DNA of 64,000 nt from Methylobacter sp. S3L5C (GTDB lineage: Bacteria > Pseudomonadota > Gammaproteobacteria > Methylococcales > Methylomonadaceae). The notes under the pieces were generated by a model, which ran no database searches, had not been told where the DNA came from, and saw nothing but the letters and a program-made list of their open reading frames with translations. The translations under genes were made by a program, and so were the position numbers. The DNA lies in assembly GCF_022788635.1 (NCBI RefSeq), contig NZ_CP076024.1, positions 3,410,001 to 3,474,000 on the forward strand, in the 5' to 3' direction. Each line of letters starts with the position of its first letter. Position 1 is the stretch's first letter. Shown piece by piece: positions 1,380 to 46,029 of this stretch.

Positions 1380-2473
1380 CTTTGTTTTTTATATTTGCGG
1401 TAGCAGTATTGAGGGCCTGACCTAGCCATTTTCGACCAGCGTTATAAAAACTTGCCATAATATATTTTTTATATACTGAGTAGCAGTTTACCTAAACTGA
1501 CTATCGTGCGATTAACTAAGGATAAGCGTAATTATATGCAAAACTTTATTCACCGGTAAAAGTGTATCTCCATAAAAGGCTTCATACTGAAATTTTTCTC
1601 AAGGCCGATATTAGCGAATTAGGAGCGAATAGCGGGATAAACAAATCAGCAAGTTTCCTCGGCACTTTTATGGTTAAGATTAAACCTTAATAAAACCAGA
1701 CAGTTAAGAAAAATTTAGGTTGATTATAATTGACATTAATGACTTTTTTGATAATTAATGAATTTTTATCATTAATGAAGTATTATTGGTAATTATAATG
1801 CTCAAGCAAAATTAAATTTGCACTATATAATATTTATGATACCTTTGATTTAGTAAAATTATTATTTTAATAAGATTAACTTATCACTGTTAATTTAAAA
1901 ATCAAGATTTATAAATAAATGATCACTGTATAAACTAAACATTCAATGACTAACAGAAATTGGCAGGAAAAGACTGGCACCGTTTTTTGGTTGACGGCTG
2001 GTTGACTTTGAAAAATAGTCATTTAGTAACAGGCACTGTTGTCGCTGACCAGTCATGCTGGAAAAAGAACTTAAAGCGGCAAAAATTGAGTGCAATTCAA
2101 TAAATAAGCAACGATATTTTCAGTTTTAAAACATCAAAAATACATAAAAAAGAAATAAATATCTTATTTTTGCATTATAAAAATATATAATATATTATAT
2201 CGCATAATATACCCATAAAATATCTCATTTATGTAAAAAGCTCCAGAGTGACTATAGAACAAACCTTAGGTTAAATACTCACCCTTTTGGCAATTTCTCA
2301 TCAATATTAATTGATTAATACCAGCAAAAATTAGATGGCTCTTAAAGGTCGTTTTTTTATTTATTTAATCTTTTAGAAATTAATTTTTCATTACACATCG
2401 CTTCCAAAACTTTCTTAAATAACACGACTATAAGATTCAAATTTTCATTTGCCAATCCTATCCAAGGTCTAAC
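1380..2473. other. AT-rich intergenic region upstream of the Kai operon
   Basis: About 1.1 kb with frequent stops in all frames and long A/T runs, especially 1690-1930 and 2100-2240. I find no convincing gene, RNA or terminator in it. It probably contains the promoter of the kaiC operon, but no unambiguous -35/-10 pair can be chosen by eye. Confidence 0.5.
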
Positions 2474-4213
2474 ATGTCCAACACGCAACAGACTGAACTT
2501 AACAAAATCCAGACAGGTATTCGCGGGTTGGATGATATTACCAACGGTGGCTTGCCCAGAGGTCGGGGCACTTTGCTCGCCGGTGGCCCAGGTTGTGGCA
2601 AGACGGTAATAGCCTTACAAATACTGGTTTATGGAGCGAAGCATGGTGAGCCGGGCATTTTTGTCACCTTCGAAGAAGATTCCTCACATATTATTAACAA
2701 CGCCAGTGCCTTTGGTTGGAGTTTGCCTGAACTGGAAGGACATAAACTCTTTTTTCTTGATGCCAAACCGAGACCTGACATTGTTTGTGCCGGACAGTTC
2801 GATCTCTCTAGCCTACTCGCTTCGCTCAAGGTCAAAGCCGATCAGATGACGGCCAAGCGTATCGTTTTTGATTCCATTGACGTACTATTGTCGCTACTTG
2901 ATGATCCGCTAGCCGAACGTCGCGAGTTATTCCGCTTGAATGACTGGCTGATATCAAGTGGATTAACCGGTATTATTACCTGTAAGAATAATGACTCCTG
3001 TCAGTCAAGGCTCGACTATCAGGATTTTATGCAGTATATGGTTGATTGCATGATCTTCCTGCGTCATGATGTGGATAACCGACTTGCCCACCGCACCATG
3101 CGTATTATCAAATATCGTGGCTCCAGCTTTAATTCTAGGGAAGCAGCCTTATTGTTGGGTGATACCGGTGCCGAGGTTATCGCTTTCACGCTATCGTTAC
3201 CCCAACTAAGCGCCAGTACCGAGCGTATCTCCTCCGGCATAGATCGGCTCGACAGTATGCTGGGAAGCGGTTACTATCGGGGTTCTGCCGTGGTGCTAAG
3301 CGGCGCTCCCGGCACAGCAAAGACTACCCTCTGCGGTTGTTTCCTGCTTGCCGCATGCGAGCGCGGAGAACGCTCTCTTTTTATCGGATTTGACGAACCG
3401 GCGCAGGAAATTGTTCGTAATCTGCGTTCGGTAGGCATTGATTTGGGACCGTATGTCGATAGCGGTTTACTGCATATTCAATCGCTTCGTAGTAGCGTGA
3501 GCGGAACAGAAGAGCATATGGGAATGGTACGTAGGCTTATCGAAACCTATCAACCACGTTGCCTTGTGATTGATCCACTATCCGCCATCGTCAATAGTCA
3601 TAGCAATGACGAGGCTCTCAGACGCATGCCTGAACAATTGCTGGCGTTGACCAAGTCAACCGGCATTACCATGGTATGTACCAGTTTACTGGCTTCTAAT
3701 AACGACGCGCTGAACGAAGATACCAATATTCATATATCTACGGTGGCAGATACCTGGATACATATCAGTTACGCCATGCTCGCCGGCGAACGAAACCGGG
3801 CTCTAACCATTGTTAAATCACGCGGTACAGAACATTCCAATCAGGTACGGGAGCTAATCTTAAATTCGAGTGGCGTATCTTTGGCCGACGTCTATCAGGC
3901 AGGCGGTGAGGTATTGATGGGCACAGCCCGCTGGCAAAAAGAGACTGCTGAAAAAGCGACCGAAGATCTGTTATTGGCAAGCGTCGTTCACAAACGTCGG
4001 GCCATCGAACTGGCTCAAGCGGAGGTTAACGCACGCGTCGAAGTCTTGCAGGTTGAATTGGCCGTCAAGGAAGCGGAGTTAAAGTTGTTATTGGCGACTG
4101 AAGATACCCGTGTCAAACTATCTAATCTATCGCGCGATGAATTGTGGAGCAAACGCAGTGGCGATGACTTGAAGCCCTCATCGGAAAACTGGCACATCGA
4201 CCAGGAGTTCTAG
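2474..4213 (+). CDS. kaiC: KaiC-family double-RecA ATPase/kinase
   Basis: A 579-residue KaiC homologue with two RecA-like domains. CI (about 10-240) has Walker A GGPGCGKT at 37-44 and the paired glutamates at 67-68 (FEED). CII (about 245-475) has a variant Walker A GAPGTAKT at 277-284. The cyanobacterial phosphosites are preserved: T417, S422 and T423 in TNIHIST align with T426, S431 and T432 of Synechococcus KaiC. The first CII glutamate is Asp here (D307-E308), which may alter kinase or ATPase chemistry. A charged, probably coiled-coil tail (about 485-560) extends the protein beyond the 519 residues typical of cyanobacteria. ATG at 2474 follows an AAGG motif. It is the first gene of a kaiC-kaiB-GGDEF/EAL operon, 3 bp before kaiB. 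Clock function is not implied, since no kaiA is seen. Confidence 0.93.
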   Translation: MSNTQQTELNKIQTGIRGLDDITNGGLPRGRGTLLAGGPGCGKTVIALQILVYGAKHGEPGIFVTFEEDSSHIINNASAFGWSLPELEGHKLFFLDAKPRPDIVCAGQFDLSSLLASLKVKADQMTAKRIVFDSIDVLLSLLDDPLAERRELFRLNDWLISSGLTGIITCKNNDSCQSRLDYQDFMQYMVDCMIFLRHDVDNRLAHRTMRIIKYRGSSFNSREAALLLGDTGAEVIAFTLSLPQLSASTERISSGIDRLDSMLGSGYYRGSAVVLSGAPGTAKTTLCGCFLLAACERGERSLFIGFDEPAQEIVRNLRSVGIDLGPYVDSGLLHIQSLRSSVSGTEEHMGMVRRLIETYQPRCLVIDPLSAIVNSHSNDEALRRMPEQLLALTKSTGITMVCTSLLASNNDALNEDTNIHISTVADTWIHISYAMLAGERNRALTIVKSRGTEHSNQVRELILNSSGVSLADVYQAGGEVLMGTARWQKETAEKATEDLLLASVVHKRRAIELAQAEVNARVEVLQVELAVKEAELKLLLATEDTRVKLSNLSRDELWSKRSGDDLKPSSENWHIDQEF

Positions 4214-4216
4214 CGC

Positions 4217-4546
4217 ATGCCTAACATTTCACTTATACCAAAACATACTTCAGAAATCAGTACGGCGACTCATGTTTTCCGTCTTTATGTTGCAGGAGAA
4301 GCACCTAACTCAATTCTTGCCCTTCATAATCTCAAGGCGCTCTGTCTTAGGCTGTACCGTGATGATTACCGAATTGATGTCGTCGATGTCTTGCTGTCAC
4401 CTGAACGAGCGTGGGCTGAGGGCGTTATAGTTACTCCCATGGTCTTGCGTATTTCTCCAGAGCCGGTAGTTAAAATCATTGGTAATCTAAACAATACTGA
4501 TCAGGTACTGCGAGCTCTGGGTCTTGTGATCAACGACAATGACTAA
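4217..4546 (+). CDS. kaiB: KaiB family protein
   Basis: A 109-residue protein covering the whole KaiB fold, with the family landmarks LYVAGEAPNS near residue 30, a DVVDVL strand, a VTP motif and KIIGNL near the C-terminus. In cyanobacteria KaiB switches fold and binds the CI ring of phosphorylated KaiC. The N-terminus carries about 18 extra residues compared with a minimal KaiB. The start lies 3 bp after the kaiC stop and the end overlaps the next gene by 8 bp, so the three genes are probably co-transcribed and translationally coupled. Confidence 0.93.
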   Translation: MPNISLIPKHTSEISTATHVFRLYVAGEAPNSILALHNLKALCLRLYRDDYRIDVVDVLLSPERAWAEGVIVTPMVLRISPEPVVKIIGNLNNTDQVLRALGLVINDND

Positions 4547-6749
4547 GAACATAATGTTAATTGATACCCTGAATCGGGAAAGTTTCGAAAAGCAGTTAAC
4601 CAGGATCGAAAATTCTCCTGCTGATCTGATGATGAATGGTATCGATGCAGTGCTAACCCACGAAGGGCCGGTATTGAGTTGTGATGCACATTTAGCCATA
4701 ACCAAATCTGAAGCTCGTTATCGCCATCTCATCAACCGGATAGCAGCTCTTATTGTAGAGCTTACTCCGACCGGTGAGATTCTCTATACCAACGAGGCCA
4801 TAACGCTTATTACCGGATTTTCAACCGAGGAGTTAATATTCTGCAACTGGTTAGATCTGCTGTTGCCACTTCAGGAATCGACACACCTCAATTTATTGCC
4901 CCAACAATTTCTTGAAAATGGTGAATTGAATGCTTTCAAAACCCGCATCCTGACAGGAGATGGAAGTCGGAAAATTATTTCCTGGAATTCGGCTCATGTT
5001 CTTGGCACCAATGAGCTTGTTGAACGGATAATTTATTTCGGTATTGATGTTACCGAGCAGGTGCTCGCTGAGCAGGAATTAAGTATTGCGGCTATCGCCT
5101 TTGAATCACAGGAAGGCATGATGGTCGCTGATGCCAATGGCCTGATTTTGCGGGTAAACAACGCCTTCGTTACTATCACCGGCTATAGCGCTGAAGAGGT
5201 CATAGGTAAGCATACACGAACACTCCAATCTGGACACCATAATGTGGACTTTTATGCCGAGATGTGGCGGATTATTACTAGTACCAGTATGTGGTTTGGC
5301 GAAATATGGAATCGGCGCAAAAATGGTGAAAGCTATACGAGTTATCAGTCCATTACTGCAGTGAAAGACACCAACGGTATCGTCTCCCATTACGTTTCAA
5401 CACTCACCGATATCACTGCAAGTCATCTGGCTGCAGAGGAAATTAAGAATCTGGCATTCTATGATCCGCTTACCCACCTGCCCAACAGGCGGTTACTTAT
5501 CGATCGGCTAAAACAAGCATTAATTTCTAGCACGCGTACCGACCTTGAAGGGGCTGTACTATTTATCGACTTGGACTATTTTAAGGCTCTCAACGATACT
5601 CACGGTCATGCCATAGGTGACTTGCTGCTAAAACAAGTTGCACAACGTTTAACCTCTTGTGTGCGCGAATGCGACACCGTATCCCGCCTGAGTGGTGATG
5701 AGTATGTGGTAGTTTTGGTAAATCTGAATAAAAATAGTGTAGTAGCTGCGGCCCAGACCGAAAGCATAGGCAGAAAAATTCTGGCCGCTCTTACACGGCC
5801 CTACCAACTTGACAAGCATCACTATCACTGCACCGCCAGCATTGGCGCAACATTATTCAATGTTACCCATTCCGACACAGAGGAACTGCTGCAACAAGCC
5901 GACATTGCCATGTATGAAGGCAAAAGAACCGGCCGCAACAAACTGTGTTTCTTCGACCAGCAAATGCAGGATACTATTAGCGCTCGTGTGGCGCTAGAAA
6001 ATGAATTACACCTCGCCATTAAGCGCGGACAATTTCAATTATACTACCAAATCCAAGTGGACAGTTCGGGATGTCCATTAGGGGCAGAGGCGCTTATCCG
6101 TTGGCTACATCCTGAACATGGCTTGGTCTCTCCCCAACAATTTATTCCGTTAGCGGAAGAAAAAGGCTTGATCCTGCTCATTGGACAATGGGTACTGGAA
6201 ACGGCTTGCGCCCAACTTAAGGCATGGCAGCAAGAGTGCAACACCAGCAATCTTACACTGTCCGTGAACGTCAGTGCTCACCAGTTCCGTCAGGCTAATT
6301 TTGTCAATCAAGTACTGGCGACTATAAATCGATATGCTATTAATCCTGGCTTGCTCAAACTGGAACTAACAGAAAGCATTTTTCTGTCAGAAATTAACGA
6401 TACGGTTATCGTTATGGACACATTAAGAAAAATCGGTATCCGGTTCTCATTAGACGACTTTGGTACCGGCTATTCATGCTTGCAATACCTTAAGCAGTTG
6501 CCATTTGATCAATTGAAAATTGACCGGTCCTTTGTACGTGATATTACTGCCAATAGCAGTGATAAAACGATTGTGAGCACCATCATTGCCATGGCACACA
6601 GTTTGGAACTGGATGTTATTGCCGAAGGGGTGGAGACTGAAGAACAGCAACAAATTCTCTTGGAAAAAGGCTGCGTCTATTATCAAGGCTATTTATTTGG
6701 CAAGCCGTTACCCATTGAGCAGTTTAATGTATTACTGCTGAAGACTTGA
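4539..6749 (+). CDS. PAS-PAS-GGDEF-EAL c-di-GMP signalling protein
   Basis: A 736-residue soluble protein with two PAS domains (about 55-175 and 180-295), a GGDEF domain (about 300-475) and an EAL domain (about 485-736). The EAL catalytic set looks intact: E517-A-L, the LELTES motif at about 608-613, and DDFGTGYS at 639-646. The GGDEF signature is altered to SGDEY (385-389), so cyclase activity may be weak and the domain may act as a GTP sensor. The net activity is therefore more likely c-di-GMP phosphodiesterase. No membrane segment is seen. It overlaps kaiB by 8 bp, placing c-di-GMP turnover directly downstream of the KaiBC pair. Confidence 0.93.
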   Translation: MTKNIMLIDTLNRESFEKQLTRIENSPADLMMNGIDAVLTHEGPVLSCDAHLAITKSEARYRHLINRIAALIVELTPTGEILYTNEAITLITGFSTEELIFCNWLDLLLPLQESTHLNLLPQQFLENGELNAFKTRILTGDGSRKIISWNSAHVLGTNELVERIIYFGIDVTEQVLAEQELSIAAIAFESQEGMMVADANGLILRVNNAFVTITGYSAEEVIGKHTRTLQSGHHNVDFYAEMWRIITSTSMWFGEIWNRRKNGESYTSYQSITAVKDTNGIVSHYVSTLTDITASHLAAEEIKNLAFYDPLTHLPNRRLLIDRLKQALISSTRTDLEGAVLFIDLDYFKALNDTHGHAIGDLLLKQVAQRLTSCVRECDTVSRLSGDEYVVVLVNLNKNSVVAAAQTESIGRKILAALTRPYQLDKHHYHCTASIGATLFNVTHSDTEELLQQADIAMYEGKRTGRNKLCFFDQQMQDTISARVALENELHLAIKRGQFQLYYQIQVDSSGCPLGAEALIRWLHPEHGLVSPQQFIPLAEEKGLILLIGQWVLETACAQLKAWQQECNTSNLTLSVNVSAHQFRQANFVNQVLATINRYAINPGLLKLELTESIFLSEINDTVIVMDTLRKIGIRFSLDDFGTGYSCLQYLKQLPFDQLKIDRSFVRDITANSSDKTIVSTIIAMAHSLELDVIAEGVETEEQQQILLEKGCVYYQGYLFGKPLPIEQFNVLLLKT

Positions 6750-6903
6750 TTATTTTTGAAGTAGGCTATTTTGGATTTTAATAAACAAAAGACTATATGT
6801 TGTAACTAAGTTATATGATCTAAAATCATCTATTTTCTTTCCATGCAAAGTCTAACTGTTATCCGGTAAAAAAGTGGCGGTGACACTCGAAAAACCATAC
6901 TAC

Positions 6904-8008: not shown

Positions 8009-8070
8009 CCCCCTGCGTCAGAATAGTTGTCGCCTCAACTTTTAAGAAAAAATAAAATTTGAGAGTAGAA

Positions 8071-8571
8071 ATGAAAAAATATAAAAGGTATTCAGTAGGC
8101 TTCAGAGAGCAGGCCCTGGTAAAAGTATACAATCGTAGTAATGACCAATCAGTTCAGTCCGTCGCAAACGAATTGAATATCCATTTAACAACCTTGAAGG
8201 CTTGGATGAAACAGAAGGAACAGGACGTCAAACTTGCACCGCTAAAATCAAAGCGTCCCGAAGATTGGAGCTCTGAAGAACGCTTTACTGCTTTACAAAA
8301 AACCTATAATTTGATCGGTGAAGACTTAAATGCCTGGTGTCGTGAACGCGGCGTTTTTATTCATCAGTTGGAACAATGGAAAGCTGATTTCTGCCGCCAG
8401 GATGACTTAGTAGACAAGCGTGAAGAAGCGCGGGTCCTGCGTATATTGAAAGAAGAAGTCCAAAGCCTTGAGCGCAATTTATTGCGTAAAGACAAAGCCT
8501 TAGCAGAAGCCGCAGCGCTGTTGGTACTGCAAAAAAAGTTCCGGGCGCTCTTGGGGGGAGAGGTCGAATGA
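8071..8571 (+). CDS. IS3-family transposase OrfA
   Basis: A 166-residue DNA-binding subunit. The N-terminus (YSVGFREQALVKVYN ... SVANELNIHLTTLKAW) is the helix-turn-helix typical of IS3 OrfA proteins, and a heptad-rich C-terminus (about 120-160) could form the leucine-zipper-like coil. ATG at 8071 is preferred over an upstream TTG because GAGAG lies before it. The stop codon overlaps the orfB start (ATGA), suggesting coupled translation. An identical copy lies at 12777-13277 on the other strand. Confidence 0.85.
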   Translation: MKKYKRYSVGFREQALVKVYNRSNDQSVQSVANELNIHLTTLKAWMKQKEQDVKLAPLKSKRPEDWSSEERFTALQKTYNLIGEDLNAWCRERGVFIHQLEQWKADFCRQDDLVDKREEARVLRILKEEVQSLERNLLRKDKALAEAAALLVLQKKFRALLGGEVE

Positions 8572-9596
8572 CTGGCCACGAAGAGCGCGAACAAGTGATT
8601 GCTTTACTTAATGAATCAGTAACTGCGGGAGCACGTCAAGCTAAAGCCTGTGAAGTATTAGGACTTAGTGAGCGTACCTTACAACGCTGGCAGACAGGTG
8701 AGACGATTCACTGCGATCAACGCCCCTTGCGTGACTATCAACCGCCACACAAACTAACAGCAATCGAGCGTGCCGAGGTGCTGATCGTCGCTAATTCAGA
8801 TGAATTTGGTCATCTGCCACCGAGTCAGATCGTGCCACGACTGGCCGACCAAGGTAGCTATCTGGCGTCTGAGTCGACCTTCTATCGCATCCTGCGCGAG
8901 GAAAAACAGCTTACCCATCGGCGTAGCGAACGTCCGGCTCAAACACGAACAAAGCCACGCGCGGCATGTGCTACAGCACCTAATCAACTGTACAGTTGGG
9001 ACATTACTTATCTGCCATCACTGATCCGTGGACAGTTTTTCTATCTGTATCTATTTGTTGATATTTTCAGCCGAAAGATCGTCGGTTGGCAGGTGTATGA
9101 AGAAGAAAACAGCGCCTTGGCTGGCGAATTGTTACGTGATCTCTGTCATCGTGAAGGGATACAGGCAGAACAGCTTATCCTGCATTCTGACAACGGCAGT
9201 CCGATGAAGGGATCGACTATGCTGGCGACCTTGCAACAACTGGGTGTCATGCCTTCGTTTAGTCGGCCATCGGTTAGCAACGATAATCCGTACTCAGAAT
9301 CGTTGTTTAAGACCTTGAAATATCGTCCTAACTATCCGCTAAAGCCGTTCGCCGATGTTACGGAAGCGCGTCAGTGGGTCACAAGCTTAGTGGAATGGTA
9401 CAACCATGAGCATCGTCACAGCGCTATTCGGTTTATTACTCCAGCGCAACGCCATGAAGGCTTGGACGACAAGCTTCTGGATAACCGTAAAGTCGTCTAC
9501 GAAGCAGCACGTGCTAAACATCCGCAACGCTGGACTGGAAGTTCCCGTAATTGGGAAAAAATCCAGACAGCCCACCTTAACCCAGACAAGGTCTAA
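8568..9596 (+). CDS. IS3-family transposase OrfB (DDE integrase core)
   Basis: A 342-residue DDE recombinase. An N-terminal HTH (ACEVLGLSERTLQRW, about 28-42) is followed by an HTH_21-like region and an rve core with catalytic residues in WDITYLP (D), HSDNGSP (D) and NPYSESLFK (E). It starts inside the orfA stop (ATGA). The copy on the minus strand at 11752-12780 has the same length and sequence, which points to recent activity. Confidence 0.9.
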   Translation: MTGHEEREQVIALLNESVTAGARQAKACEVLGLSERTLQRWQTGETIHCDQRPLRDYQPPHKLTAIERAEVLIVANSDEFGHLPPSQIVPRLADQGSYLASESTFYRILREEKQLTHRRSERPAQTRTKPRAACATAPNQLYSWDITYLPSLIRGQFFYLYLFVDIFSRKIVGWQVYEEENSALAGELLRDLCHREGIQAEQLILHSDNGSPMKGSTMLATLQQLGVMPSFSRPSVSNDNPYSESLFKTLKYRPNYPLKPFADVTEARQWVTSLVEWYNHEHRHSAIRFITPAQRHEGLDDKLLDNRKVVYEAARAKHPQRWTGSSRNWEKIQTAHLNPDKV

Positions 9597-9689
9597 ACAA
9601 AAAAATGCTACCAAGGAAGTGATTATTTAGAAAACAAACCAGAGTAAGATTTAACCGTCGAGGCGACAACTACATTGACAATTACCGCA

Positions 9690-10589
9690 GGTGAGACGAT
9701 TCACTGCGATCAACGCCCCTTGCGTGACTATCAACCGCCACACAAACTAACAGCAATCGAGCGTGCCGAGGTGCTGATCGTCGCTAATTCAGATGAATTT
9801 GGTCATCTGCCACCGAGTCAGATCGTGCCACGACTGGCCGACCAAGGTAGCTATCTGGCGTCTGAGTCGACCTTCTATCGCATCCTGCGCGAGGAAAAAC
9901 AGCTTACCCATCGGCGTAGCGAACGTCCGGCTCAAACACGAACAAAGCCACGCGCGGCATGTGCTACAGCACCTAATCAACTGTACAGTTGGGACATTAC
10001 TTATCTGCCATCACTGATCCGTGGACAGTTTTTCTATCTGTATCTATTTGTTGATATTTTCAGCCGAAAGATCGTCGGTTGGCAGGTGTATGAAGAAGAA
10101 AACAGCGCCTTGGCTGGCGAATTGTTACGTGATCTCTGTCATCGTGAAGGGATACAGGCAGAACAGCTTATCCTGCATTCTGACAACGGCAGTCCGATGA
10201 AGGGATCGACTATGCTGGCGACCTTGCAACAACTGGGTGTCATGCCTTCGTTTAGTCGGCCATCGGTTAGCAACGATAATCCGTACTCAGAATCGTTGTT
10301 TAAGACCTTGAAATATCGTCCTAACTATCCGCTAAAGCCGTTCGCCGATGTTACGGAAGCGCGTCAGTGGGTCACAAGCTTAGTGGAATGGTACAACCAT
10401 GAGCATCGTCACAGCGCTATTCGGTTTATTACTCCAGCGCAACGCCATGAAGGCTTGGACGACAAGCTTCTGGATAACCGTAAAGTCGTCTACGAAGCAG
10501 CACGTGCTAAACATCCGCAACGCTGGACTGGAAGTTCCCGTAATTGGGAAAAAATCCAGACAGCCCACCTTAACCCAGACAAGGTCTAA
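9690..10589 (+). pseudogene. 5'-truncated IS3 OrfB (copy B)
   Basis: This reading frame is identical to orfB of copy A from the ETIHCDQRPLRDYQ region to its stop, but the first HTH is missing and replaced by MTITAG-type residues encoded by the duplicated flank. The catalytic D, D and E are all present. Without the N-terminal HTH and the OrfA start-stop coupling it is unlikely to be functional. Confidence 0.85.
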
Positions 10590-10681
10590 ACAAAAAAATG
10601 CTACCAAGGAAGTGATTATTTAGAAAACAAACCAGAGTAAGATTTAACCGTCGAGGCGACAACTACATTGACAATTACCGC
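9690..10681 (+). mobile_element. partial tandem duplicate of the IS3 element, copy B
   Basis: The segment from GGTGAGACG inside orfB through the right IS end and its flank is repeated directly after copy A with a 993-bp offset. The join falls at a short shared CAG. Copy B therefore has a right end but no left end and cannot transpose alone. Its right edge is the present border with the prophage tape-measure gene. Confidence 0.85.
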
Positions 10682-11659
10682 AGATACAGCTATTACTGAA
10701 TTATCGATACCTTTTAATACTTCTACTTGTGAAGTACCTACTTTAAGCAAAAAGTCCAACCCAGCATTTGAAGCGGTAAAGGAATCAGTTAATATCTGAT
10801 TACTTAAATCATACTGTGTCTGAGCAGAAGTAGACATAGCTGTGATAGCATCTACTGTTGCCTGAGCTACGGATACTTGGGCAGTTGTTCTACTTGATAG
10901 CTCGCTTATAATATTACCCGCTTTTGCCTGCTCTAAAGCATAGGTAGCGAAGTCAGAAAATAGTTGCTCACTTGGTTTAGCTATATTTGCCAGGGCACTT
11001 GTTATAGCAGGGGTTAAGGCTAAAGAGCCACCAGACCTAGAGGTATTTAATGCACTAGACAGAGTAGCTTGGGCATTACTACGTTGTTGCCTTAAAGTAG
11101 CATCGCTCTCTATAGTTGTCGAGCCTATGGCTGACTTTAAAGCATCAGCCATAGCCGTAGCGGATGACAAAGTATCACCAGCGGCTTTCTGTAACGTAGC
11201 ATGATACGCTAACGTCGTATCTAACTGTGTTTTTAGCAGGGCCCCATCAGAGGCATACTTATCAGATAATACTTTTTTCTCTGCTGTTATAGCCCTATTT
11301 AAGGTAGCCAATGAAGCATCCAGAACTGCTGTACTATCTTTTATGGAGTTAGCTATAGCAGCAGCTAGATTCTTTTGCGCAGCTGTATAGTCATTATTTA
11401 CATTTATAAGGGCTTGCAACCCTTGCAATGTCGCGTCAATAGCCAGAATCTCATCTTTACGCTTTATAGCTAAGGCAGCTATAGAGTTGCCTTGGGCTCC
11501 TAGTAATGCTATTTCAAGCGCATGCTTTTGGCCAGCTAATTGTTTGGCACTATCCAGGGCAGCTTGGGCATTAGCCTCTAAATTTGTGTAGTATTGGTCA
11601 GCAGAGCTACTAAGTTTTAATAGGACCGAGTATAGAGCCTGCCCTGAGTTAGTTGTTAG
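10682..11659 (-). pseudogene. tape measure protein, third fragment (3' end lost)
   Basis: Ala/Ser/Thr-rich helical sequence continuing the tail tape-measure gene. Removing IS copy C with one TTAG copy restores the frame exactly: ...EALDLT from the middle fragment joins TNSGQALYSVLLKLSS here. The fragment ends at the IS copy B boundary after DNSVIAVSA, where IS-derived codons add a short false tail. The native C-terminus and all genes downstream of it are missing. Confidence 0.85.
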
Positions 11660-11751
11660 GCGGTAATTGTCAATGTAGTTGTCGCCTCGACGGTTAAATC
11701 TTACTCTGGTTTGTTTTCTAAATAATCACTTCCTTGGTAGCATTTTTTTGT

Positions 11752-12780
11752 TTAGACCTTGTCTGGGTTAAGGTGGGCTGTCTGGATTTTTTCCCAATTA
11801 CGGGAACTTCCAGTCCAGCGTTGCGGATGTTTAGCACGTGCTGCTTCGTAGACGACTTTACGGTTATCCAGAAGCTTGTCGTCCAAGCCTTCATGGCGTT
11901 GCGCTGGAGTAATAAACCGAATAGCGCTGTGACGATGCTCATGGTTGTACCATTCCACTAAGCTTGTGACCCACTGACGCGCTTCCGTAACATCGGCGAA
12001 CGGCTTTAGCGGATAGTTAGGACGATATTTCAAGGTCTTAAACAACGATTCTGAGTACGGATTATCGTTGCTAACCGATGGCCGACTAAACGAAGGCATG
12101 ACACCCAGTTGTTGCAAGGTCGCCAGCATAGTCGATCCCTTCATCGGACTGCCGTTGTCAGAATGCAGGATAAGCTGTTCTGCCTGTATCCCTTCACGAT
12201 GACAGAGATCACGTAACAATTCGCCAGCCAAGGCGCTGTTTTCTTCTTCATACACCTGCCAACCGACGATCTTTCGGCTGAAAATATCAACAAATAGATA
12301 CAGATAGAAAAACTGTCCACGGATCAGTGATGGCAGATAAGTAATGTCCCAACTGTACAGTTGATTAGGTGCTGTAGCACATGCCGCGCGTGGCTTTGTT
12401 CGTGTTTGAGCCGGACGTTCGCTACGCCGATGGGTAAGCTGTTTTTCCTCGCGCAGGATGCGATAGAAGGTCGACTCAGACGCCAGATAGCTACCTTGGT
12501 CGGCCAGTCGTGGCACGATCTGACTCGGTGGCAGATGACCAAATTCATCTGAATTAGCGACGATCAGCACCTCGGCACGCTCGATTGCTGTTAGTTTGTG
12601 TGGCGGTTGATAGTCACGCAAGGGGCGTTGATCGCAGTGAATCGTCTCACCTGTCTGCCAGCGTTGTAAGGTACGCTCACTAAGTCCTAATACTTCACAG
12701 GCTTTAGCTTGACGTGCTCCCGCAGTTACTGATTCATTAAGTAAAGCAATCACTTGTTCGCGCTCTTCGTGGCCAGTCAT
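11752..12780 (-). CDS. IS3-family transposase OrfB (copy C)
   Basis: A 342-residue DDE transposase identical in translation to the copy at 8568-9596, with an N-terminal HTH and rve core (WDITYL, HSDNGS, SESLFK). It overlaps orfA by ATGA. It is intact and probably the functional unit of copy C. Confidence 0.9.
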   Translation of the reverse strand: MTGHEEREQVIALLNESVTAGARQAKACEVLGLSERTLQRWQTGETIHCDQRPLRDYQPPHKLTAIERAEVLIVANSDEFGHLPPSQIVPRLADQGSYLASESTFYRILREEKQLTHRRSERPAQTRTKPRAACATAPNQLYSWDITYLPSLIRGQFFYLYLFVDIFSRKIVGWQVYEEENSALAGELLRDLCHREGIQAEQLILHSDNGSPMKGSTMLATLQQLGVMPSFSRPSVSNDNPYSESLFKTLKYRPNYPLKPFADVTEARQWVTSLVEWYNHEHRHSAIRFITPAQRHEGLDDKLLDNRKVVYEAARAKHPQRWTGSSRNWEKIQTAHLNPDKV

Positions 12781-13277
12781 TCGACCTCTCCCCCCAAGAG
12801 CGCCCGGAACTTTTTTTGCAGTACCAACAGCGCTGCGGCTTCTGCTAAGGCTTTGTCTTTACGCAATAAATTGCGCTCAAGGCTTTGGACTTCTTCTTTC
12901 AATATACGCAGGACCCGCGCTTCTTCACGCTTGTCTACTAAGTCATCCTGGCGGCAGAAATCAGCTTTCCATTGTTCCAACTGATGAATAAAAACGCCGC
13001 GTTCACGACACCAGGCATTTAAGTCTTCACCGATCAAATTATAGGTTTTTTGTAAAGCAGTAAAGCGTTCTTCAGAGCTCCAATCTTCGGGACGCTTTGA
13101 TTTTAGCGGTGCAAGTTTGACGTCCTGTTCCTTCTGTTTCATCCAAGCCTTCAAGGTTGTTAAATGGATATTCAATTCGTTTGCGACGGACTGAACTGAT
13201 TGGTCATTACTACGATTGTATACTTTTACCAGGGCCTGCTCTCTGAAGCCTACTGAATACCTTTTATATTTTTTCAT
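12777..13277 (-). CDS. IS3-family transposase OrfA (copy C)
   Basis: A 166-residue HTH protein identical in translation to 8071-8571. The start ATG at 13277 was chosen as for copy A. It is transcribed in the same direction as the disrupted phage tail operon. Confidence 0.85.
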   Translation of the reverse strand: MKKYKRYSVGFREQALVKVYNRSNDQSVQSVANELNIHLTTLKAWMKQKEQDVKLAPLKSKRPEDWSSEERFTALQKTYNLIGEDLNAWCRERGVFIHQLEQWKADFCRQDDLVDKREEARVLRILKEEVQSLERNLLRKDKALAEAAALLVLQKKFRALLGGEVE

Positions 13278-13339
13278 TTCTACTCTCAAATTTTATTTTT
13301 TCTTAAAAGTTGAGGCGACAACTATTCTGACGCAGGGGG

Positions 13340-45770: not shown

Positions 45771-45907
45771 GAATCTAAAAAAAATTAACGCAAATTAAAA
45801 AAAACATGCCAAATGTCGCGCGAAATATTTCGTAACCGTTAAAAAGTACTACCAAATATCCCACAAATCAAAAAACGACTAAAACGGCCTAAAGCCTTAT
45901 TCCGTAT

Positions 45908-46029
45908 AGTCCCGCTTCATTCTGCTTCATTCTGCTATTACATACCAAATAACCCAGCTCTTCACAATAGTCCCGCTTCATTCTGCTTCATTCTGCTATT
46001 ACATACCAAATAACCCAGCTCTTCACATT
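45908..46029. repeat. two tandem 61-bp repeats at the prophage edge
   Basis: A 61-bp unit starting TAGTCCCGCTTCATTCTGC occurs twice (45908-45968 and 45969-46029) with almost no change. Each unit itself contains CTTCATTCTG twice. The location, just outside the repressor gene, is where a transposable phage would carry its terminal transposase-binding sites. Confidence 0.7.

Follow-up and report, generated by a model that had tools for sequence, protein, structure and literature searches.

How KaiBC systems that lack both KaiA and SasA transmit their state is, to our knowledge, an open question, and a kaiC-kaiB-effector operon of the methane-oxidizing bacterium Methylobacter sp. S3L5C bears on it. 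The operon lies in a stretch of 64,000 nucleotides (referred to here as the window) that covers positions 3410001-3474000 of a one-contig, 4.8-Mb genome; the operon features given below, in window coordinates, are all on the forward strand. The three genes are kaiC (2474..4213; 579 amino acids [aa], with two RecA/KaiC domains and a C-terminal extension of ∼95 residues), kaiB (4217..4546; 109 aa), and a third gene (4539..6749; 736 aa) that encodes, from N to C terminus, a segment described here as the GEVDA box, two PAS domains, a GGDEF domain, and an EAL domain. In the list of open reading frames (ORFs), kaiC and kaiB are separated by 3 bp, and kaiB overlaps the third gene by 8 bp, exactly as a sequence-only reading of this DNA had stated. 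This spacing points to cotranscription of all three genes as one operon; a scan for sigma-70 promoters and terminators was uninformative (16 and 8 sites, compared to 13.9 and 5.7 expected in shuffled sequence).

Pfam searches matched the KaiC ATPase domain in two stretches of KaiC (5e-90), the KaiB domain in KaiB (6.2e-16), which was also placed by structure alignments, and PAS (two stretches), GGDEF (2.3e-46), and EAL (1e-71) domains in the third protein. The KaiA family (PF07688) gave no match in the whole 4.8-Mb genome, while an S. elongatus control was positive in the same search, which bears out the earlier description of the system as KaiA-less. The triplet is also confirmed not to be a chance arrangement: the same architecture is present in Methylobacter psychrophilus (L012/L112) and in Methylobacter FW305 (L010). 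The outcome that the sequence-only reading named as refuting the link, a triplet missing from related genomes, did not occur. Taking the sequence comparisons together, we consider it slightly more probable than its opposite that this single operon encodes a KaiA-less KaiBC switch acting, through contact with the GEVDA box, on a cyclic di-GMP (c-di-GMP) phosphodiesterase effector.

The GEVDA box and its linkage to kaiBC

The GEVDA box, a Kai-linked N-terminal module of the third protein, is the stretch ahead of the first PAS domain (4611..4709, residues about 25-57; here GIDAVLTHEGPVL...) and was delimited by alignment, profile searches, and structure modeling. Its core is GEVDA[VL], with the version GIDAVL in the window, and its Asp is the sole invariant column among 25 aligned rows. 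No Pfam model was found for the box, nor was any significant relative found in the Protein Data Bank (PDB), where the best match was prefoldin at an E value of 0.021. A SasA-like KaiB domain at the N terminus of the third protein was considered and rejected, none being reported at an E value of ≤0.001; no kinase domain was reported at this cutoff either. The box is not described in the accessible portions of PMC3164672, PMC5520375, PMC6627678, PMC4794148, PMC10359499, PMC10076222, PMC8069551, PMC13001216, and PMC3899966, subscription journals being mostly outside the literature covered.

A box profile built from 25 rows was run on a class sample (369 genomes) and a phylum sample (398 genomes), which overlap. 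At an E value of ≤1e-3, the class sample returned 15 places in 13 genomes. All but one of these (14 of 15) lie behind kaiB or kaiC, the remaining place (G362) matching the PAS cap only. Half of the Kai-linked places (7 of 14) had contributed to the profile and 7 had not, although one of the latter (G159) is close to profile rows. Viewed from KaiC, 9 of the 15 class-sample places with an E value of ≤1e-80 have a box. In the phylum sample, 18 genomes had a match, at 19 places in all; setting aside two from the window's own genome leaves 17 held-out places. Each of the 9 held-out places with an E value of ≤2e-7 is directly behind kaiB. None of the remaining eight is in that position: one (G771; 1.8e-6) lacks the core, one (G704; 2.5e-4) matches the PAS cap only, and six (4e-4 to 8e-4) appear RibF-like by eye.

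Plasmids gave the same picture. Among 72,556 records, a 60-residue box query retrieved 13 and a KaiB query 18; all 13 box records are also KaiB records, and by coordinates the box is just behind KaiB in 13/13. The five plasmid regions that were inspected have the order kaiC-kaiB-effector. Since 9 of the 13 records are from Cereibacter, they amount to about five independent cases. In these collections, then, nearly every box detected was the immediate downstream neighbor of kaiB or kaiC. One boxed PAS protein (L119, 110-2518) has a C-terminal half without a Pfam or NCBIfam match at the cutoffs used.

Outputs, KaiC, and KaiB across related loci

Behind the box, the third protein carries PAS 1 (4737..5078) and PAS 2 (5085..5438), both supported by Pfam and by the structure model, and then a GGDEF domain (5454..5942) and an EAL domain (6000..6707), both supported by Pfam and alignment. 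The EAL catalytic set, which we take to be E, N, E, DD, K, E, and Q, is complete in the window and in 27/27 aligned rows, in line with the sequence-only reading of the third gene as a c-di-GMP enzyme. The GGDEF domain has a RECD I-site, and its motif varies: the window and M. psychrophilus have SGDEY, five aligned unboxed paralogues have GGDEF, and six rows from G113, G115, G128, G158, G159, and G176 have GADHF. Because the EAL residues are constant while the GGDEF motif varies, the function more likely to be conserved is that of a phosphodiesterase; the SGDEY domain may still act as a cyclase or sense GTP. Structures 5m3c and 4rnh ("Motility regulator") match the third protein with E values of 8.8e-114 and 3e-113.

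Among the loci collected, the nearest named relative is that of M. psychrophilus Z-0021 (KaiC, 97%), whose operon shares 92% DNA identity with window positions 2400-6797. In a metagenome-assembled genome of the Gallionellaceae (L011), the same layout is seen up to and including the GGDEF domain, beyond which the contig stops; either the operon was transferred between distant groups, or the contig was misbinned. In a KaiC tree of 55 rows, made by a quick method and with several long branches flagged, the window falls within a starred group of 11 rows that also includes L010, L011, and L012. Another member of this group, L009, has a short KaiC on a contig without kaiB; at 3693-6148 of this locus (G015), KaiC ends early at 516 aa and is followed by a transposase-like ORF, and the contig has no box.

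The sister branch within this group (6 rows: L074-L078 and L080) has KaiCs 66-71% identical to that of the window. Its third proteins retain the N terminus and PAS, whereas their C-terminal part is a histidine kinase, with a receiver in 5 of 6 (L075 is cut by the contig end). L090, known from a KaiC fragment only, has the same kinase type; at other Kai loci, the output domain is a HisKA, HisKA_2, or HWE kinase. At L106 (6378-8486), a boxed protein with an HD_5 domain, presumably of the HD-GYP type, lies between KaiB genes and is perhaps a further c-di-GMP-type output. Across these relatives, the N terminus of the third gene product is thus constant, and the predicted output is swapped among histidine kinase, HD domain, and GGDEF-EAL. 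A single conserved c-di-GMP triplet was considered and set aside, as the closest sister loci carry a kinase and the Kai-linked GGDEF-EAL proteins do not form one clade.

The GGDEF-EAL portion of the window's protein falls in a starred 8-row group of its tree, the other members being the M. psychrophilus orthologue and six paralogues. Four of the six lie elsewhere in the same genome (62-64% identity), and one is from G012, a genome without a KaiC match at an E value of ≤1e-30; the sixth, which has no box, is a neighbor of kaiC in M. psychrophilus, at a distance of 1.5 kb and on the opposite strand. GGDEF-EAL proteins from Kai loci of other genera of the family (those with the GADHF motif) are distant, with 26-36% identity in GGDEF and 45-46% in EAL. 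Because the window's GGDEF-EAL groups with unboxed paralogues and far from those of other genera, the c-di-GMP module was taken up more than once, separately in the window's lineage and perhaps there from a neighbor. The earlier suggestion that a Kai switch may set c-di-GMP levels directly is therefore upheld in part: the linkage is conserved, the box is Kai-linked, and the EAL set is intact, but c-di-GMP is just one among several Kai-linked outputs, the closest sister loci having a kinase.

The KaiC of the window combines a canonical CI site with an altered CII site. In CI, the Walker A motif is GPGCGKTV (2585..2608), and the catalytic pair is Glu-Glu, as in 54 of 55 readable rows, window included. 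In CII, the Walker A motif is GAPGTAKTT (3302..3328), with Ala before Lys, and the catalytic pair is Asp307-Glu308 (3392..3397) instead of Glu-Glu. These residues were compared by alignment in a table of 56 rows from 55 loci, restricted to rows of 450 aa or more and thus without fragments such as L090, L091, and L118 and the split KaiC of L117; L101 and L121 are one locus, both being in the table and one left out of the tree. The position before the CII Lys is Gly in 32 rows, Ala in 15, and Ser in 9. The 24 rows with Ala or Ser, window included, form one starred lineage (99), in which the first CII catalytic residue is Asp in 24/24 and the second is Ser in seven; CII is canonical in all 32 rows outside it.

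The phosphosite stretch (3722..3742) holds T417, S422, and T423, of which S422/T423 occupy the aligned positions of S413/S414 in the R. sphaeroides protein; the six kinase-type sisters have T-S-A. The C-terminal extension (3926..4210) aligns with that of R. sphaeroides KaiC, a coiled coil in 8DBA, as far as residue 557. Against NCBIfam, the protein scores above one KaiC model (492.1 versus 408) and below TIGR02655, circ_KaiC (290.5 versus 546.25). The three phosphosites named by the sequence-only reading are therefore present, but an altered CII active site adjoins them; to say that this KaiC keeps T-S-T overstates its kinship to the clock, and its CII phosphocycle is probably changed or absent.

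A similar qualification applies to KaiB, described earlier as complete. The Pfam domain is there, but the protein falls below the cutoffs of both NCBIfam clock-KaiB models (66.9 versus 110 and 62.1 versus 145.3 bits) and differs at three positions. Taking the S. elongatus numbering to apply to the aligned positions, Gly69 (4421..4423) stands at K57, and Ala100-Leu-Gly102 (4514..4522; alignments to 2qke and 5jwo) covers G88 and D90. These three have been suggested as fold-switch residues (PMC5520375). The 5jwo chain also has Ala at the G88 position, where 2qke has Gly. Both G88 and D90 are kept in 0 of 25 KaiBs of the altered lineage versus 24 of 45 others, in a table that lacks three KaiBs in ORFs of 135 aa or more (L106, L123, and L143) and places L090 and L091 in the altered lineage by kinship, not by CII; K57 is rare or absent in both sets. 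The window's KaiB may thus be biased to its binding fold. KaiB-like domains also occur in ORFs of about 235-240 aa in G128, G115, G102, and many genomes of the same family.

Competing readings of the operon

The mechanism that we propose has three steps. The complex of KaiB with KaiC, whose CI ATPase site is canonical and whose CII is altered, would shift with the energy or nucleotide state of the cell. The KaiBC complex would then bind the third protein at its N-terminal GEVDA box, and box-bound KaiBC, together with the PAS sensors, would set c-di-GMP turnover, most probably through phosphodiesterase activity. We infer the box-Kai contact, the phosphodiesterase activity, the energy sensing, and an effect on behavior. 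A broader proposal is offered tentatively, as it seems to us rather more likely wrong than right: the box would be a dedicated KaiBC-docking module of proteobacterial Kai systems, that of R. sphaeroides included, driving interchangeable effectors, and in the window's lineage, where KaiB would favor its binding fold and the CII kinase cycle would be altered or gone, the system would be an ATPase-driven energy switch for c-di-GMP breakdown and not a clock.

The strongest competing explanation, unlikely in our judgment though a serious one, is that the box is merely inherited as a neighbor: an old 5′ end behind kaiB, downstream of which outputs were swapped by recombination, with an effector that never touches Kai. 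In most loci, the gene overlaps kaiB slightly or follows it after a short gap, which would anchor such a 5′ end, and distances between boxes are correlated with those between KaiCs over 46 loci (r, 0.84; 0 of 2000 permutations) as expected from common descent, which suffices to explain the correlation. Yet the box is better conserved than the adjoining PAS1 within three groups of third proteins (likeness of 0.60/0.50, 0.58/0.36, and 0.50/0.30, respectively), and the box core had no match away from Kai in the plasmids or in the two genome samples, where at most 16-17 candidates per genome were scored.

That correlation and the number of candidates scored weigh against a box-mediated contact, as do several other observations. 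When proteins of the window's group are compared with those of the canonical group, the box has diverged about as much as PAS1 (0.21 versus 0.18). AlphaFold, run on residues 1-300 with 21 rows, gave two confident PAS folds and rendered the box as a helix plus a beta-hairpin, with a pLDDT of 51-60 over residues 21-60 that is too low to rely on. Five of the 18 KaiB plasmid records have no box match. The box is present in 51 of the 60 Kai loci collected, a set partly chosen by the box, and absent from 9; the boxless loci include five rows that branch off next to the remainder of the altered KaiC lineage to which the window belongs. In four of the five (L093, L097, L098, and L105), an ORF for a GGDEF-EAL or EAL protein is found instead, immediately or a short way upstream of kaiC.

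It is improbable, in our estimate, that information flows in the reverse direction, with the PAS-GGDEF-EAL protein as an input that sets the state of KaiBC by contact or through c-di-GMP/GTP. The kinase of the R. sphaeroides kaiBC operon has been suggested to relay a redox signal to KaiBC (PMC5520375). Swappable effector domains nevertheless suit outputs better. A true KaiC-phosphorylation hourglass or clock of the R. sphaeroides type is very improbable and not to be assumed, as the T-S-T sites and the C-terminal extension are present but the CII Walker A and first catalytic Glu are changed in 24/24 lineage rows, the T423 position is Ala in 6/6 sister KaiCs, and KaiB is changed at the K57, G88, and D90 positions.

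If the KaiBC switch does act through the box on c-di-GMP, methane oxidizers would have a Kai switch governing c-di-GMP breakdown, a process by which many bacteria control attachment and motility. More generally, the box may be the plug that joins Kai switches to interchangeable outputs, and its presence in the R. sphaeroides system provides a concrete segment as the candidate link from Kai to output.

Neighboring sequence and known Kai systems

By DNA comparison, a block of ∼700 bp upstream of the operon (1429..2130) is 73% similar to the stretch upstream of the M. psychrophilus operon, while the counterpart of the latter's downstream flank lies at a distance of 2.57 Mb in this genome (836702-840248; 95%). 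With the upstream block kept and that flank far off, the operon and its downstream flank have parted since the two genomes diverged. A second Kai locus at 4.47 Mb has two further KaiB genes in tandem (L086, 8452-13818; G000, 4.476-4.482 Mb). Its order is kaiC-kaiB-kaiB, a boxed multi-PAS ORF, an insertion sequence (IS) transposase identical to the 342-aa protein of the window, and a GGDEF-EAL ORF. Because the last clusters with boxed proteins from L095, L110 (as L168), and L111 and the transposase lies between, the locus appears to hold a second Kai-linked c-di-GMP gene interrupted by an IS. Elsewhere in the window, a two-gene IS occurs in two perfect inverted copies (1680 bp) and a partial third (8009-9688, 9688-10683, and 11660-13339), and a perfect 61-bp tandem duplication lies near a tRNA-Met gene (45906-46027).

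Compared to the cyanobacterial KaiABC clock, the window shares only the T-S-T phosphosites among the features compared; it has no KaiA match, no canonical CII, and no K57/G88/D90. The SasA type of output kinase differs in its KaiB-like N terminus and kinase domain, neither of which was reported in the third protein. The proteins of 5m3c and 4rnh share the GGDEF-EAL tandem, matching from window residue 304/308 onward only, and we know of no box or Kai linkage for them. Legionella pneumophila reportedly has a kaiBC-lpp1114 stress operon, which would be similar as a KaiA-less kaiBC with a downstream gene. In Methylobacterium extorquens AM1, the kaiC1-kaiB2-kaiB1-kaiR1 cluster likewise has a downstream gene, and the KaiC proteins there take part in responses to temperature and UV (PMC8069551).

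Clusters of kaiC and kaiB followed by histidine kinase or GGDEF/EAL genes were described in 2011 in the Ramlibacter genome paper (PMC3164672); with this gene order in print, the triplet as such is not new. The likeness to those clusters is one of gene order. The section concerned mentions neither a GEVDA box nor an output swap among close relatives nor an altered CII, and the N-terminal module proposed there belongs to kinases behind kaiC without kaiB. Units of kaiC, kaiB, and a PAS/histidine kinase are also on record for R. palustris, R. sphaeroides, and Bradyrhizobium (PMC4794148 and PMC3899966).

The closest solved KaiC to that of the window is 8DBA, from the KaiBC system of R. sphaeroides, which is KaiA-less (PMC10076222). 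As available, the text of this 2023 structure paper does not contain "histidine kinase," "operon," or "downstream." The 8DBA protein is the KaiC of plasmid pB of R. sphaeroides (Cereibacter) 2.4.1, and the HWE kinase gene behind kaiB in this strain carries the GEVDA box. The two systems therefore share the absence of KaiA, the kaiC-kaiB-effector order, the KaiC C-terminal extension, and a boxed effector, whereas in R. sphaeroides CII is canonical, the sites are T-S-S, and the output is a histidine kinase. Relative to the known kind of KaiBC system with a signaling gene, what is new is the box, the output swap, and the altered KaiC and KaiB.

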